The position numbers and the translations under genes were made by a program. A model generated the notes under the pieces. That model saw only the letters and a program-made list of their open reading frames with translations. It searched no databases and was not told the origin of the DNA. This document shows positions 3,168-34,302 of a stretch of 64,000 nt of DNA, one piece after another. Source of the stretch: Saliphagus infecundisoli. Its GTDB lineage: Archaea; Halobacteriota; Halobacteria; Halobacteriales; Natrialbaceae. Location of the stretch: the NCBI RefSeq assembly GCF_020177375.1, contig NZ_JAIWHV010000011.1, forward strand, positions 1 to 64,000, in the 5' to 3' direction. Within the stretch, counting starts at the first letter, position 1. Each line of letters starts with the position of its first letter.

Positions 3168-4343
3168 ATGGATCGACGGTCGGTCCTCCGGGTCGGGGTC
3201 GCGGTGGGCGTCGGCGCGAGCGGAGGCTGTCTCTCCCGGCTCAGAGAGGAGGCGGGGGTCGACGACGCCGACGGCGAGACGTCGAGGATCGCACGCGTCG
3301 AGGACCCGCCCGACGCCGTCTACGTCCCGAGCCACCGCGAGACGATGGAGCGCCTCGAGCCGGCCCGTGCCGGCGACTACGCCGTCGCGCCGATGGTGAC
3401 GTACGCCCACCCGTTCTGGCTCGTCGACGGGAGCGAGACGACTCTCGTCGAGCCCCAGGGCGGCCCGGAGGTCCACCTGATGATCGCTCTCCGGGAGCCC
3501 GAGACGGGGGCCGCCCTCCCCGTGGCGTCGGGCGCCCGGCTCCGGCTCGAGCACGACGGCGAGTCGATCGGTTCGGTCTCGCCCTGGCCGATGATCTCCC
3601 AGGGGATGGGCGCCCACTTCGGTGACAACGTCCCGCTGGAGGGCGACGGAACCTACGCCGTCGAGGTCGAACTCCCACCCCTCGGCGTCCGGACGACCGG
3701 CACCCTGGCGGGCCGGTTCGAGACCTTCGAGACGGCGACCTTCGAGTTCACGTACGACGAGGCGTTCCGCGAGGCGGTCGCCGACGTCGAGTATCTGGAC
3801 GAGGAGCTGTGGGGCCGGCGGGGTGCCCTCGAGCCGACGGGCCACGGCGGCGGAGACGGAGACGAAGGGAACGATTCGAACGCGGACGACGACCGTTCCG
3901 GCCACGAGGGCGACGAGGGCGGCATGGCCCACTCCGTTTCCGCACTGGCGCCCGCCGAGGAGTACCCCGGACTCCTCGGGGCGCCGGAACGCGACGACGC
4001 CGTCCTCGTGACCGCCCTGCTCGAGCCCGGGTCGCGGTTCGCCGAGAACGGGGAGCGGTACCTGCTGGTCTCGCCGCGGACGCCCTATAACCGGGTCCCC
4101 CTCGCCGACATGGCCATGACCGCGACCGTCGCGCGCGGGGACGAGGCCGTGGAAGAGGCGGATCTCGTCCAGACGATCGACGGTGAGTACGGCCATCACT
4201 ACGGCGCCGGGGTGGCGGAACTCGCCGAGGGCGACGCCCTCACGGTCGCCATCGAGGGCGTCCCCCAGGTGGCCCGCCATCAGGGGTACGAGACGGCCTT
4301 CCTCGAGATGGAGCCGATCGAGCTGACCGTGGGGGGAGCCTGA
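3168..4343 (+). CDS. Two-domain P19/Tp34-like metal-binding lipoprotein
   Basis: A 391-residue exported protein with a Tat/lipobox start (MDRRSVLR, then a Gly/Ala stretch ending GGC at about residue 24). Two related halves are visible. The first carries SPWPMISQGMGAHFGDNV, resembling the Met/His metal site of the P19/Tp34 periplasmic iron/copper-binding family. The second carries EYGHHYGAGV and a GVPQVARHQGYETAF stretch. An acidic, His-containing linker near residues 225-250 joins them. It is a paralogue of the protein at 30502-31638, which has the same architecture. Likely role is extracellular binding of Fe or Cu. Its stop shares one base with the next start (TGATG), pointing to an operon with the cohesin-domain gene. 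Family assignment is by motif reading, not by search. Confidence 0.72.
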   Translation: MDRRSVLRVGVAVGVGASGGCLSRLREEAGVDDADGETSRIARVEDPPDAVYVPSHRETMERLEPARAGDYAVAPMVTYAHPFWLVDGSETTLVEPQGGPEVHLMIALREPETGAALPVASGARLRLEHDGESIGSVSPWPMISQGMGAHFGDNVPLEGDGTYAVEVELPPLGVRTTGTLAGRFETFETATFEFTYDEAFREAVADVEYLDEELWGRRGALEPTGHGGGDGDEGNDSNADDDRSGHEGDEGGMAHSVSALAPAEEYPGLLGAPERDDAVLVTALLEPGSRFAENGERYLLVSPRTPYNRVPLADMAMTATVARGDEAVEEADLVQTIDGEYGHHYGAGVAELAEGDALTVAIEGVPQVARHQGYETAFLEMEPIELTVGGA

Positions 4344-28479: not shown

Positions 28480-29157
28480 CTACACCGCGTCGAGGACGAC
28501 GATCGAGAGGTAGAGCTGACCGGCCCCGGCGACGATCATCAGCCCGCCCGCCAGGCGCTCCAACGTCCGCCCGTGGTGGGCGAGCCGGCCGGCCCCCGCC
28601 ATCAGCCCGGTTCCGGTCGCCACCGTCACCGCGACCATCAGGAGGACGATTCCGGCGATGTAGGTCCCGAAAACGAGCGCGGTGGAGGCGGTCGGCAACG
28701 AAAGCGCCCGCGCGACCACCATCAAGAACACCGGCGCGACACAGCCGACGGCCGCGAGCGCGTAGCCGACGCCGAAGATCCCGAATCCGACGACACTCGA
28801 GCGCCGTTTCGGGAGCGAAAGCGAGAGCGACGGCGCCCGGCCCGCGACGACGAGCGCGCCGAGGACGACCAGCAGCCCGCCGACGACCGGCTCGAAGAGG
28901 GTGACCCGGGAGAACGCCTCGTTGCCGACGGCGAACGCGACCCCGATCAGCACGACCAGCGTCGCGAGGACGCCCGCGCCCGCGATCAGCCCGCGCCCGA
29001 CGGCGCCCCCGACGGTCGCCTCCTCCCCCGTCTGGCTGGCGTAGAAGCCGACGTACCCCGGCAGGAGCGGGTACGCACACGGCGAGAAGAAGGTCGCGAT
29101 CCCCGCGGTAAACGCGAAGGCGAGCGTCGTCGCGAGCCCCGGATCGAGGACGGACAT
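28480..29157 (-). CDS. ccdA: Cytochrome c biogenesis/thiol-disulfide transporter CcdA
   Basis: A 225-residue, six-helix membrane protein of the DsbD/CcdA group that carries electrons across the membrane as thiols. The two key cysteines are in FFSPCAYPLLPGY (helix 1) and AAVGCVAPVF (helix 4). The gene starts three bases after tlpA ends, so sco, tlpA and ccdA form one operon. CcdA would keep the TlpA and Sco thiols reduced on the outer face for cytochrome c haem ligation or copper-centre assembly. Confidence 0.92.
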   Translation of the reverse strand: MSVLDPGLATTLAFAFTAGIATFFSPCAYPLLPGYVGFYASQTGEEATVGGAVGRGLIAGAGVLATLVVLIGVAFAVGNEAFSRVTLFEPVVGGLLVVLGALVVAGRAPSLSLSLPKRRSSVVGFGIFGVGYALAAVGCVAPVFLMVVARALSLPTASTALVFGTYIAGIVLLMVAVTVATGTGLMAGAGRLAHHGRTLERLAGGLMIVAGAGQLYLSIVVLDAV

Positions 29158-29160
29158 CGG

Positions 29161-29691
29161 CTACTCCGCCGCCTCGATCCGGTTGACGATCCCGTCGGCC
29201 GAGAGGATCCCGCTGTGAGACCAGTCGACGACGCCCTCCCTATCGAGGACGACCGCGGTCGGGTAGCCGCTGACCTCGTAGCGTTCGCTCAACTCGCCCG
29301 TGGGGTCGAGCGCGACCGTCCACCCGCCGTCGTGGTCGGCCCACCACTCCCGGAGTTCGCCCTCGCTTACCGTCCGGCCGATCGGCTCGTTGGTCACCGA
29401 GACGAAGTCGGCCTCCGTTCGGTCCCTCGCCTCGGCGATCGCCGGCATCTGTTCCTTGCAGGGCGCACACCATGTCGCAAAGAAGTCCAGAAAGCGCACC
29501 CGGTCGGCGTCGAGGTTTGGGATCATCACCGTACCGTCGGTGCTGCCCGCGGCCTCGACGGTCTCGAGTTCGACCGGCTCCTCGGGTTCGGTGTCGTCGT
29601 CGAGAGAGGGACGACCGAAGACGGCGAGACCGGCGCCGCCGGCGACCACGCCCGCGCTCGCGATTCCGGCGAGGAGGTCCCGTCGGCGCAT
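29161..29691 (-). CDS. TlpA-like exported thioredoxin
   Basis: A 176-residue thioredoxin-fold protein with a Tat-type signal (MRRRDLLAGIASAG) and active site WCAPC in FFATWCAPCKEQMP, then the cis-Pro loop GYPTAV. It should reduce disulfides outside the cytoplasm using electrons from CcdA. Alternative start: a GTG at 29700 overlaps the sco stop in the common 4-base GTGA manner and adds MTR; the ATG at 29691 is listed because it starts the twin-arginine signal cleanly. Confidence 0.9.
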   Translation of the reverse strand: MRRRDLLAGIASAGVVAGGAGLAVFGRPSLDDDTEPEEPVELETVEAAGSTDGTVMIPNLDADRVRFLDFFATWCAPCKEQMPAIAEARDRTEADFVSVTNEPIGRTVSEGELREWWADHDGGWTVALDPTGELSERYEVSGYPTAVVLDREGVVDWSHSGILSADGIVNRIEAAE

Positions 29692-29696
29692 CCGAG

Positions 29697-30413
29697 TCAC
29701 CCCGAGACGACCGTCTCGACGTCCTCGAGGATCGTCTCGGTCCCGACCTGGGTCGCCCTCGGATAGGCGCGTTCGACGACGCCGTCCTCGTTTCCGAGCA
29801 GGATCAGGGCGAAGTGGGTGAACGTGTATTCGTGACCGTCGTGGCCCGAGTGGTTCCCCTCGGCCTCCTCGACCGGGACCCGCTCGATCGGCATCCCGAA
29901 CTCCTCGTCGACGAGCTCCATTGCCGTCTCGTTGTTCTCGGGCCGGAGGAAGTGCCAGTTGCCCGCGTCGAGATCGATGCCGTAATCGTCGGCGTAGCTC
30001 TCGAGGCGGTCGGCGGTGTCGACGTTGGGGTCGAAGGTCAACGCGAGGAAGGCGATCTCGTCGCCGTATCCGTTGTCGGCGGCGTCGATCTGGGCCTGGA
30101 GGAGCCGCTGTATTAGTGCCGGGCAGACCCCGTCCGGACAGGTGGTAAAGAAGAAAGTCATCAGGATCGAACGCTTGCCCTCGAACTCCTCGGCGGTCAC
30201 CGTCTCCCCGGTGAGCGGATCGGGAACCGAAAAGGCGGGGAAGTCGTCGCCGTGGGTCGGGTGAGAAGGATCCCCGCGGCTCTCGGAGGGCGGATCGAGG
30301 ACGGTCCGTTCTCCCCCGTCCGAGCCCCGAATCGTCCCGAGACAGCCCGCAGCGCCGACGGCACCGACGCTTCCGGCGACCCCGAGCGAACGGAGATACG
30401 CACGTCGTTCCAT
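29697..30413 (-). CDS. SCO1/SenC-type copper chaperone lipoprotein
   Basis: A 238-residue protein with a Tat/lipobox start (MERRAYLRSLG, cleavage before Cys24 in AAGC). The Sco copper site is present: CPDGVC (the CxxxC motif) and, about 90 residues later, His in FTHFALIL. Sco proteins deliver Cu to the CuA centre of haem-copper oxidases or act as thiol reductases. An extra HSGHDGHEY histidine stretch precedes the ligand His. It is first gene of the sco-tlpA-ccdA operon and diverges from the P19-like lipoprotein at 30502. Confidence 0.92.
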   Translation of the reverse strand: MERRAYLRSLGVAGSVGAVGAAGCLGTIRGSDGGERTVLDPPSESRGDPSHPTHGDDFPAFSVPDPLTGETVTAEEFEGKRSILMTFFFTTCPDGVCPALIQRLLQAQIDAADNGYGDEIAFLALTFDPNVDTADRLESYADDYGIDLDAGNWHFLRPENNETAMELVDEEFGMPIERVPVEEAEGNHSGHDGHEYTFTHFALILLGNEDGVVERAYPRATQVGTETILEDVETVVSG

Positions 30414-30501
30414 GGTCGGAGCCAGGGACCGAGAGGAGAAAGGGGCGTTGGTTCACGGGGGAACCGGAAGGCGTTTTTCCGCGCTCGCCCAACCGTCGAC
30501 G

Positions 30502-31638
30502 ATGAACCGACGAGCCGTCCTCCGGCGTGCCGGGACCGCCGGCGGACTGGCTCTCGCGGGCTGTCTCGAGGGGCTGGGCTTCGAGGAGGAGTCGGCCTGG
30601 CGGGACCCGCCGCTGGTCTCGGACCGGCCGGACGCGGTCTACGTCCCCGCCTCGACGGAGACGATGGGAACCTACGGGCGCGCCGTCGGCGAGGAGTACG
30701 CCGTCTCGCTGTCGTACACCGTCCCCCACCGGTTCTGGACCGTCGCCGGCCGCGAAACCAGCCGCGTCACCGTCGGAACCGACGACACGATCCACCTCAT
30801 GTGTACCGTCTGGGCACCCGGCACCGACCACGTCCTCCCCGTCGAGGTCGGCGGCGACCTCCGCCGGGACGGCGAGTCCGTCCGGTCGTTTTCCCCCTGG
30901 CCGATGCTCTCTCAACGGATGGGTTTTCACTACGGCGACAACGTCGCCCTCCCCGAAGAGGGAGCCTACACGCTCGAGCTCTCAGTCGGCCCGACCACGG
31001 CTCGCCCGGTCGGCGAGTTCGAGGGGCGGTTCGAGCGACAGGAGACGTTCGAGCTCGGCTTCGAGTACGAACGCTCCCAGATCCACGAGGTCGAGTTCGA
31101 GGAGGTGCCCGAGGACCGGAGGGGCGAGCGCGGCGCCCTGGAGCTGATGGATCACTCGGGGATGGACGGCGAGGGCAGGAACGGCGATCATGACGGCGAG
31201 AACGGGAGTCACGCCGCCAGCGATGGCGGCACGAGCGACGACCCCGGCCATCCGCCGACCTCCCGGGGAGTTCCGATCGGGGAGCTCCCGGGAACCGTCC
31301 TCGGGAGCGCACGGACCGGCGACGCCGAGCTCTCGGTCGTAGAGACCGATCCCGTTTACGACGCGGAGTCCTACCTCGCCGTGTTCGCCCGGACCCCCCA
31401 CAACGACGTGGTGCTCCCGTTCATGTCGCTGTCGGCACGGATCGGCGGCGAGGAGGCAGCGTTGACCGAGACCCTCGCGCCCGAACTGGGCCCCCACCAC
31501 GGGGTCGAGACGGACGCCCTCGAGGCGGGGACGGAGATCACGGTCGCCGTCGAGGCCATCCCGCAGGTCGCCAGACACGACGGCTACGAGACCGCGTTCT
31601 TCGAGTTCGAGGACGTTACCGTGACCGTCGGCGAGTAA
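30502..31638 (+). CDS. Second two-domain P19/Tp34-like metal-binding lipoprotein
   Basis: A 378-residue paralogue of the protein at 3168-4343. It has a Tat-like/lipobox start (MNRRAVLRRAGTAGGLALAGC), a first P19-like domain with SPWPMLSQRMGFHYGDNV, a His-rich linker (about 215-245) and a second domain with LGPHHGVETD and AIPQVARHDGYETAFFEFE. Its divergence from the sco gene across an 88-base gap suggests joint control and a shared role in Cu or Fe handling outside the cell. P19 itself is an iron/copper-binding uptake protein. The assignment rests on motif reading. Confidence 0.72.
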   Translation: MNRRAVLRRAGTAGGLALAGCLEGLGFEEESAWRDPPLVSDRPDAVYVPASTETMGTYGRAVGEEYAVSLSYTVPHRFWTVAGRETSRVTVGTDDTIHLMCTVWAPGTDHVLPVEVGGDLRRDGESVRSFSPWPMLSQRMGFHYGDNVALPEEGAYTLELSVGPTTARPVGEFEGRFERQETFELGFEYERSQIHEVEFEEVPEDRRGERGALELMDHSGMDGEGRNGDHDGENGSHAASDGGTSDDPGHPPTSRGVPIGELPGTVLGSARTGDAELSVVETDPVYDAESYLAVFARTPHNDVVLPFMSLSARIGGEEAALTETLAPELGPHHGVETDALEAGTEITVAVEAIPQVARHDGYETAFFEFEDVTVTVGE

Positions 31639-33348: not shown

Positions 33349-34302
33349 ATGTCGACGAACGAGGCGTTGGCCGGCGACTCCCTCCCGGCGAGCGACGCCT
33401 TCGGCGCCCTCGCCAACGAGGCCAGAATCGAGGTCGTTGAGGCGATGGGCCGGCGGGAGGCCGAGGGCCGGACCCCGGCACGGTTCTCGGAGCTGTTCGC
33501 CGAAAGCGACGCGGAGACAACCGCGGGCTTTTCGTATCACCTCGACGCCCTCGTAGGACTCTACCTGCGAAAGGTGGAGACCGGGGACGGCTCCGGCGAA
33601 TCGGCGGACGGCCGACACGGCGCGGGGTACGAACTCACCCACGCGGGCCGGGAAGTCGCCCGCGCGCTCGCGGCCGGGACGTACGCCCCCCGATCCGACC
33701 GCTCGGTCCCGGTCGGGGAGCCCTGTCCCCGCTGTGGCGAGGCGGGGCTCTCCGGAGAGTCGAGCGACGGCGTCCTCGCGATCGGGTGTGAGGCCTGCAG
33801 CCAGCCGATCCTCTCGCTTGCGGTGCCGGCCGGGCTGGCCGACGGCGGGGAGGTGCCCGAGGCGTTCGACCGCCACCACCGTCACCGCCTGGCCGCCTTC
33901 GCCGACGGGCGCTGTCCGGAGTGTGGCGGGCACGTCGAGCGCGAGGTCGTTCCCGCCGGCGAGGTGCGGGACGGATCGGCCGCGAGAGCGGGCGTCGAGG
34001 ACCACGCGGATGCCGACCGGGTTCAGGCCGCGTTCTCGTGTGACCAGTGTGGCCACGGTCTCCGGGCACCCGTCACGCTCGCCGTCATGGACCACCCCGC
34101 CGTCGTCGCCTTCTACCACGACCACGGTCGCGACGTCGGGGATCGTCCCATCTGGAACGTCGGGAGCGAGTGGACGGAATCGATACTCTCCGAAGAACCC
34201 CTCTGTGTCCGCGTCGTCGCCGATCTCGCCGGCGACAGCCTCGCGCTCTACGTCGACCGCGACCTCGCTGTCCGGGAGGTCCAGCGGACCGACCGCAGTT
34301 AG
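33349..34302 (+). CDS. ArsR-like winged helix with zinc-ribbon domains
   Basis: A 317-residue cytosolic protein. Residues about 15-100 form an ArsR-type winged helix (DAFGALANEARIEVVEAM, GFSYHLDALV). The remainder carries three Cys-pair motifs: CPRCG followed by CEAC, CPECGG, and CDQCGHG, giving at least two zinc sites. This layout is common in haloarchaea (DUF7351-type by recollection) and should be a transcription regulator. It overlaps the convergent proteasome alpha gene by four bases. Confidence 0.85.
   Translation: MSTNEALAGDSLPASDAFGALANEARIEVVEAMGRREAEGRTPARFSELFAESDAETTAGFSYHLDALVGLYLRKVETGDGSGESADGRHGAGYELTHAGREVARALAAGTYAPRSDRSVPVGEPCPRCGEAGLSGESSDGVLAIGCEACSQPILSLAVPAGLADGGEVPEAFDRHHRHRLAAFADGRCPECGGHVEREVVPAGEVRDGSAARAGVEDHADADRVQAAFSCDQCGHGLRAPVTLAVMDHPAVVAFYHDHGRDVGDRPIWNVGSEWTESILSEEPLCVRVVADLAGDSLALYVDRDLAVREVQRTDRS

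Follow-up and report, generated by a model that had tools for sequence, protein, structure and literature searches.

The question raised by this locus is whether a group of genes for copper-centre and thiol proteins, and the P19-like lipoprotein gene that diverges from them, form one system outside the cell, and if so which metal it handles. The first-pass annotation, made from the sequence alone, proposed a joint copper (or iron) handling module for assembly of a terminal oxidase.

Gene content of the locus

The DNA analysed is a window of 64,000 nucleotides from Saliphagus infecundisoli, whose genome comprises 4.53 Mb in 76 contigs. The coordinates of the open reading frames confirm the layout first described, with Sco, TlpA and CcdA genes on the minus strand diverging from the lipoprotein gene on the plus strand. 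With start positions of 30413 for Sco and 30502 for the lipoprotein, the gap is the expected 88 bp. The main features are:

28480–29157, minus strand: CcdA-like membrane thiol/disulfide carrier, an open reading frame with an ortholog annotated CcdA
29161–29691, minus strand: TlpA-like extracytoplasmic thioredoxin with a CxxC motif (CAPC); PF08534, PF00578 and PF00085 above cut-off
29697–30413, minus strand: Sco (SCO1/SenC) lipoprotein, CX4C (CPDGVC) with a conserved His; from PF02630 and alignment
29811–29864, minus strand: His-rich loop of Sco directly before the conserved His, AEGNHSGHDGHEYTFTHF; from the sequence
30414–30501, no strand: divergent promoter region, 88 bp
30502–31638, plus strand: P19-like/DUF7350 twin-arginine lipoprotein, 378 residues; from PF24041, PF10634 and the predicted model
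3168–4343, plus strand: second P19-like/DUF7350 paralogue, full-length, away from Sco

These two DUF7350 proteins, both in the window, are those found in the genome. There is no oxidase gene beside the Sco cluster, and the genome's three COX2-type matches are all on other contigs.

Sco matches PF02630 with 55.2 bits (cut-off 22.8), and the TlpA-like protein matches the redoxin, AhpC-TSA and thioredoxin families. For the CcdA-like protein Pfam gives nothing above noise, and NCBIfam a match to TsoB far below cut-off; its annotated ortholog is that of Haloterrigena turkmenica (pHTUR04). All of the best 30 Sco loci fetched carry TlpA- and CcdA-like genes, and the three genes recur as a group in haloarchaea.

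The canonical spacing of the Sco cysteines is CxxxC. The window protein has CX4C, as do 26 of the 27 paired orthologs (only L097 has CX3C), and of 65 distinct Sco cores 53 are CX4C and 8 are CX3C, with 4 unreadable. Because of this departure, copper binding by Sco is putative. The His that follows the His-rich loop (the TFTH position) is conserved across the 27 aligned Sco proteins. Two other Sco genes of the same genome (L184, on contig C15, and L185, on C27) have CX3C, as CMGPC; both lie near P-type ATPases, with a plastocyanin-type protein by L185 and a DsbD_2 protein by L184.

The lipoprotein is predicted to contain two related domains

The lipoprotein matches DUF7350 (PF24041) strongly, with 143 bits against a cut-off of 27, and Iron_transport (PF10634) barely over the cut-off, with 22.3 bits against 21 and spanning 36 residues only. 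These are its only Pfam matches at E values up to 1; the PCuAC profile (PF04314) has no match in it.

An AlphaFold2 model was made from 19 sequences (pLDDT 78, pTM 0.79). Residues 51–196 of the model resemble FetP, HftA, Tp34, P19 and FtrA, with VIA Z scores of 12.1–13.6 and rmsd of 2.3–2.9 over 129–137 residues; after these, VIA ranks a DUF4426 protein at Z 10.3 and CrdA, a copper protein of Helicobacter, at Z 9.1. Foldseek finds a PDB match for the domain at E 2.5e-6. The N-terminal domain is thus predicted to have the P19/FetP/FtrA/Tp34 fold. The C-terminal domain has no clear match in the PDB. In a single hhalign comparison it aligns to the N-terminal domain with probability 96.3 and E 1.5e-9, so that the earlier description of the lipoprotein as duplicated was correct. 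Indeed it holds twice, as an internal repeat and as the full-length paralogue listed above. The features within the protein are:

30652–31089, plus strand: N-terminal P19-fold domain, residues 51–196, from structure comparison of the model
31162–31239, plus strand: His/Asp-rich interdomain linker (pLDDT below 50 at residues 221–246)
31294–31632, plus strand: C-terminal DUF7350 domain, residues 265–377, a diverged P19 copy, from Pfam and hhalign of N against C

His-rich stretches were also said to occur in both Sco and the lipoprotein. This is so, and in relatives they may be much longer or short: the Sco loop varies widely in length among orthologs (it has 25 His in Natronococcus), and the interdomain linker is longer in some relatives of the lipoprotein. 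The His counts of the two proteins correlate only weakly (rho 0.48, p 0.011, n = 27), and averaging by genus gives rho 0.38 (p 0.24, n = 11); covariation of His content was rejected as evidence.

Conservation of the neighbourhood

Relatives of the lipoprotein gene were sought in named genomes. The best 80 of the 407 found were kept, a choice that favours close relatives, and with the window they make 81 loci, which were searched by tblastn; some of these end at contig ends. Sco was found near the P19-like gene (within 7 kb) in 30 loci, and TlpA and CcdA in 31 each. Other recurrent neighbours are a membrane protein of about 470 residues (41 loci), a DUF7405 protein (23), a P-type ATPase (18) and a cation efflux protein (7). 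Conservation of the arrangement had been named as a check on the first-pass annotation. Since it is found in many genomes, it is not unique to this one, and the proposal stands on this point.

In 29 of the 30 loci the Sco operon is divergent to the P19 side, directly in 21, with the membrane protein between in 7, and at a distance of 5 kb in one. In a Halococcaceae MAG (L156) it lies downstream of the P19-like gene and is convergent. Twenty further stretches were picked by choice from genomes, two of them from the window's own. In five genomes of one genus, belonging to a family other than Natrialbaceae (L173, L174, L175, L177 and L178), a Sco match and the P19-like match that follows it share a strand and are 3–6 bp apart. 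Four of these loci have TlpA and CcdA as well, together with an oppositely oriented DyP-like gene, in a changed gene order; the fifth runs into the end of its contig. Further Sco–P19 gene orders are seen in L172 and L176.

By a hand count, no fewer than 25 of the 124 genomes with a P19-like gene have Sco at most 3 kb away from it (18 of 37 Natrialbaceae and at least 7 others). Chance would give about one such genome (2 Sco × 2 P19 × 6 kb / 3.7 Mb per genome). The adjacency is far above chance, with the proviso that shared descent makes the linked genomes non-independent. The closest relatives by lipoprotein sequence are Natrialbaceae, and there the pair sits in a syntenic block in which Cdc6, peptidase and trehalose genes to the right are also often conserved. 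Descent alone could thus keep the pair together in this family, alongside unrelated genes, and explains part of the linkage.

The partnership is not obligate. Among 145 haloarchaeal genomes, the window's own included, the P19-like gene is present in 124, Sco in 112 and both in 96, where independence expects 95.8 (a hand count, with one genome assigned by elimination); Sco occurs without the P19-like gene in 16 genomes and the P19-like gene without Sco in 28. The two therefore co-occur no more than by chance. In the best 30 Sco loci fetched, 25 lack P19 within about 1.5 kb and 5 have it. One genome (G052, locus L189) retains both Sco-TlpA-CcdA and the trehalose genes beside it but has no P19 there, and Natronobiforma (L118 and L183, one locus) has P19 without Sco. 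Outside Natrialbaceae the family adjoins a DyP-like protein, a cation efflux protein, or P-type ATPases with a Zn/Cd motif, this type being taken from the NCBIfam scores of one ATPase, which are below the equivalog cut-offs.

Blocks of P19, DyP-like, P-type ATPase and efflux genes with identical spacing are found in Haloarcula, Halorussus and Halosegnis (L147, L148, L149 and L150), and look as if they had moved recently on plasmids. Separately, one genome with a P19-linked copy of Sco-TlpA-CcdA holds an extra copy without P19 (L188, G137:C2), which in TlpA and CcdA is almost the same as the linked one (98% and 99% to L095).

The membrane protein of about 470 residues that accompanies P19-like genes (for example L095:5425-6852) is polytopic and has conserved His residues (GYHxAHY, GHxLAxWxAH). 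In the window's genome it lies apart from P19 (G000:C11:116820-118172). It has no Pfam or NCBIfam match, and its model (pLDDT 86) finds no clear match in the PDB (Foldseek best E 2.8e-3, VIA best Z 4.5), which is not proof of a new fold. The DUF7405 protein is distantly like DyP peroxidase/EfeB (for example L162:5128-6390); the copy in the window's genome is at G000:C44:72306-73319.

A promoter element shared by the divergent genes

Both divergent promoters of the paired loci share a GAACCAAC element:

30447–30454, minus strand: Sco-side element GAACCAAC (plus-strand reading GTTGGTTC), a match to GAACCA[AG][CT]
30461–30477, plus strand: P19-side element, degenerate in the window as GAACCGGAAGGCGTTTT; GAACCAACAGGCGTTTT in many relatives

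Start codons were chosen by the twin-arginine pattern, and the element was sought within 61 nt upstream. GAACCA[AG][CT] lies about 40 nt before the start in 26 of 27 Sco and 16 of 20 P19 promoters of the paired loci, against 5 of 772 other genes of these loci with automatic starts. When automatic starts are used for the paired genes as well, the figures are 15/27 and 10/27, so that the contrast stays but is smaller. The element precedes the P19 genes of other loci in 2 of 58 cases and the membrane protein in 0 of 36. The P19-side copy in the window fails the pattern.

A shared regulon in the window's genome was considered and rejected: a longer element, with up to 2 mismatches, gave 13 matches against 14 for the backward control, in a search whose pattern excludes both window sites. 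A regulator-like gene (DUF7347/DUF7351, 33349–34299) has GAACCAAT about 40 nt upstream of its start. As a candidate local regulator it was also rejected, since none of 15 relatives has GAACCAAT in the 140 nt that precede the matched stretch. A similar AACC...TTTTT string does precede some of these relatives, for which reason the shared element may partly be core promoter (BRE/TATA).

The candidate metal site

The most testable result, and one absent from the first reading, concerns the candidate ligands. The metal ligands of P19 are the His and Glu of His-x-Glu, a Met and a His, which the PDB titles of the E44Q/M88I and E46Q/M90I variants support. One P19 His probably acts across the dimer. 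All six of the bacterial P19 proteins fetched have HLE, that is, His-x-Glu...Met...His. Domain 1 aligns with these six with probability 95.9, giving the following correspondences, to which one in domain 2 is added:

30793–30801, plus strand: H98-L99-M100, which pairs with the bacterial His-x-Glu by alignment
30904–30930, plus strand: M135 to H143, which pairs by alignment with the bacterial Met...His (PMVAxDGPHYGDN)
31573–31578, plus strand: R358-H359 of RHDGYETAF, like the bacterial GRHVDKET, by eye and from a weak alignment

The bacterial DvHLEAD pairs with DTIHLMC, so that the His is kept and the Glu is replaced by Met100. M135 and H143 pair with the bacterial Met and His, with one extra residue between them. 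Thus three of the P19/Tp34 ligands (His, Met, His) are retained and the Glu is not. The replacement is invariant: when 136 distinct haloarchaeal N-domain sequences are compared with the window protein by alignment, all 136 have H98 and M100, and 135 have M135 and H143, so that His-x-Met...Met...His is found in 135 of the 136. The exception for M135 and H143 is L060, which has a broken reading frame. A separate count based on the signature finds HxM in 107 of 108. H76 (135/136) is also conserved and no bacterial counterpart was found for it; the corresponding figures for H359 and H332 are 135/136 and 127/136.

Nothing in domain 1 evidently corresponds to the bacterial GRHVDKET. Domain 2, which lacks HLE and the Met, has RHDGYETAF and an HHYG-like motif. 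Its alignment with bacterial P19 is weak (probability 2.2), which makes the pairing of RHDGYETAF with GRHVDKET a reading by eye; the His missing from domain 1 thus has a possible counterpart in domain 2.

Residues H98, M100, M135 and H143 make up a His2Met2-type candidate set that is conserved in sequence and may form one site. The set suggests a predicted metal pocket changed toward copper. Copper in a P19 protein is not in itself new, since according to the title of one paper P19 and FetP require a copper site even to transport iron. For the changed ligand set, the domain fusion and the Sco context, no description was found in the literature searched; no paper on DUF7350 was found there, nor, among titles and abstract openings, one linking P19 with Sco in archaea.

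In comparison with P19/FetP/FtrA/Tp34 (PF10634), the haloarchaeal protein shares the predicted fold of domain 1, the PM...HYGDN segment, the first His of His-x-Glu and an extracytoplasmic location. It differs in being a twin-arginine lipoprotein of two fused domains, in the change of Glu to Met, in the absence of the GRH motif from domain 1, and in its genomic setting: the FTR1/FetM permease family (PF03239) is found in 0 of the 145 haloarchaeal genomes (controls 4/14). One of the fetched bacterial P19 genes adjoins cupredoxin and FTR1 genes, as expected of an iron system. In comparison with pCuAC (PF04314), the likenesses are a putative role beside Sco and a conserved set of candidate ligands made up of two His and two Met; the motif spacing and the sequence family are different, and PF04314 is likewise found in 0 of the 145 genomes (controls 3/14).

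Proposed function of the cluster

The arrangement is real and conserved, and its reading as an oxidase assembly module is a plausible proposal. Of the original reading as a copper (or iron) module, the P19 fold, the duplication and the conserved neighbourhood are supported, a candidate metal site can now be named by its residues, and the choice of metal can be sharpened: the invariant Glu-to-Met change, together with the absence of FTR1/FetM from the 145 genomes, points to copper rather than iron.

On the basis of these sequence features, we tentatively favour, at somewhat less than even confidence, the view that the cluster is an extracytoplasmic module for the assembly of copper centres, in which the lipoprotein would be a pCuAC-like carrier of Cu(I) for Sco-dependent assembly and not a protein of iron uptake. 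CcdA would pass reductant to TlpA, TlpA would reduce Sco and client cysteines, and the lipoprotein would bring copper in its soft form, Cu(I), to either Sco or the client protein. In these archaea, where pCuAC was not found, the lipoprotein would thereby do the work of that chaperone. We know of no copper chaperone besides Sco for haloarchaeal oxidases or denitrification enzymes. The CX4C spacing weakens the Sco step and not the P19 site. The roles have precedents in PMC6696091: in Bradyrhizobium TlpA reduces ScoI and COX II, and in Thermus Sco acts as a reductant and the copper comes from pCuAC, which hands over Cu(I) bound at a His2Met2 site. Taken together with the denitrification-induced Sco operon discussed below, these roles are best matched by a lipoprotein that would act as a copper carrier in the Sco pathway.

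Through its tandem fusion, what was a homodimer in P19 may have become a pseudo-dimer that has a single composite site, in which domain 2 may supply the His lost from domain 1. A more far-reaching version is doubtful. In it the P19 scaffold would have replaced pCuAC as a fused homodimer, with the Glu-to-Met change making a Cu(I) site and domain 2 giving the absent His, and would load CuA through the CX4C-loop Sco, in some lineages with the membrane protein of about 470 residues.

An iron role is unlikely. The lipoprotein would still be an iron-binding P19 homolog, to which TlpA and CcdA give reductant in the manner proposed for the Campylobacter Fet thioredoxins. In its favour, 7 of the 15 plasmid records listed say 'iron transporter', and the DyP-like DUF7405 protein, which recalls EfeB, recurs at the loci. 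The relevant passages of PMC6083913 and PMC10783030 describe a predicted thioredoxin gene in the P19 clusters of most Proteobacteria examined and suggest ferric reduction. The fetMP-fetABCDEF cluster of Campylobacter jejuni does associate a P19-type protein with thioredoxin-like proteins; its FetM, ABC genes and FetA are, however, absent from the window cluster, and Sco and CcdA are absent from its eight genes as they appear in the excerpt of PMC6083913. The missing permease and the replaced Glu, in 136 of 136 sequences, count further against iron.

We also think it improbable that the proteins are general buffers or resistance factors, that is, surface lipoproteins sequestering surplus Cu or Zn, with Sco as a neighbour by descent in Natrialbaceae. 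The His-rich linkers, the neighbouring cation efflux genes and P-type ATPases (with CPCAFVISTPV), and the 48 plasmid records with a match are consistent with such a role. Against it are the other Sco–P19 orders in other families, including the abutting genes, and the element common to both divergent promoters.

Delivery of copper to a denitrification enzyme (the CuA of NosZ, or NirK) instead of a terminal oxidase is more improbable still: Haloferax mediterranei has an operon with the same order of Sco, thioredoxin-family and cytochrome c biogenesis genes (E6P09_05570-05560), which is strongly induced in denitrifying cells and for which NosZ maturation has been suggested, but it begins with a cupredoxin-domain gene where the window operon diverges from a P19-like lipoprotein, its authors themselves report no evidence for a NosZ role in the section of PMC11218638 concerned, and the part of PMC9240420 on the two Sco proteins of the species assigns both to cytochrome c oxidase.

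If the lipoprotein does carry copper for Sco, reassignment would concern a family that is found in 124 of the 145 genomes and frequently bears the annotation 'iron transporter', and a single invariant change from Glu to Met would allow a direct test of how a bacterial iron/copper protein can shift its metal preference.
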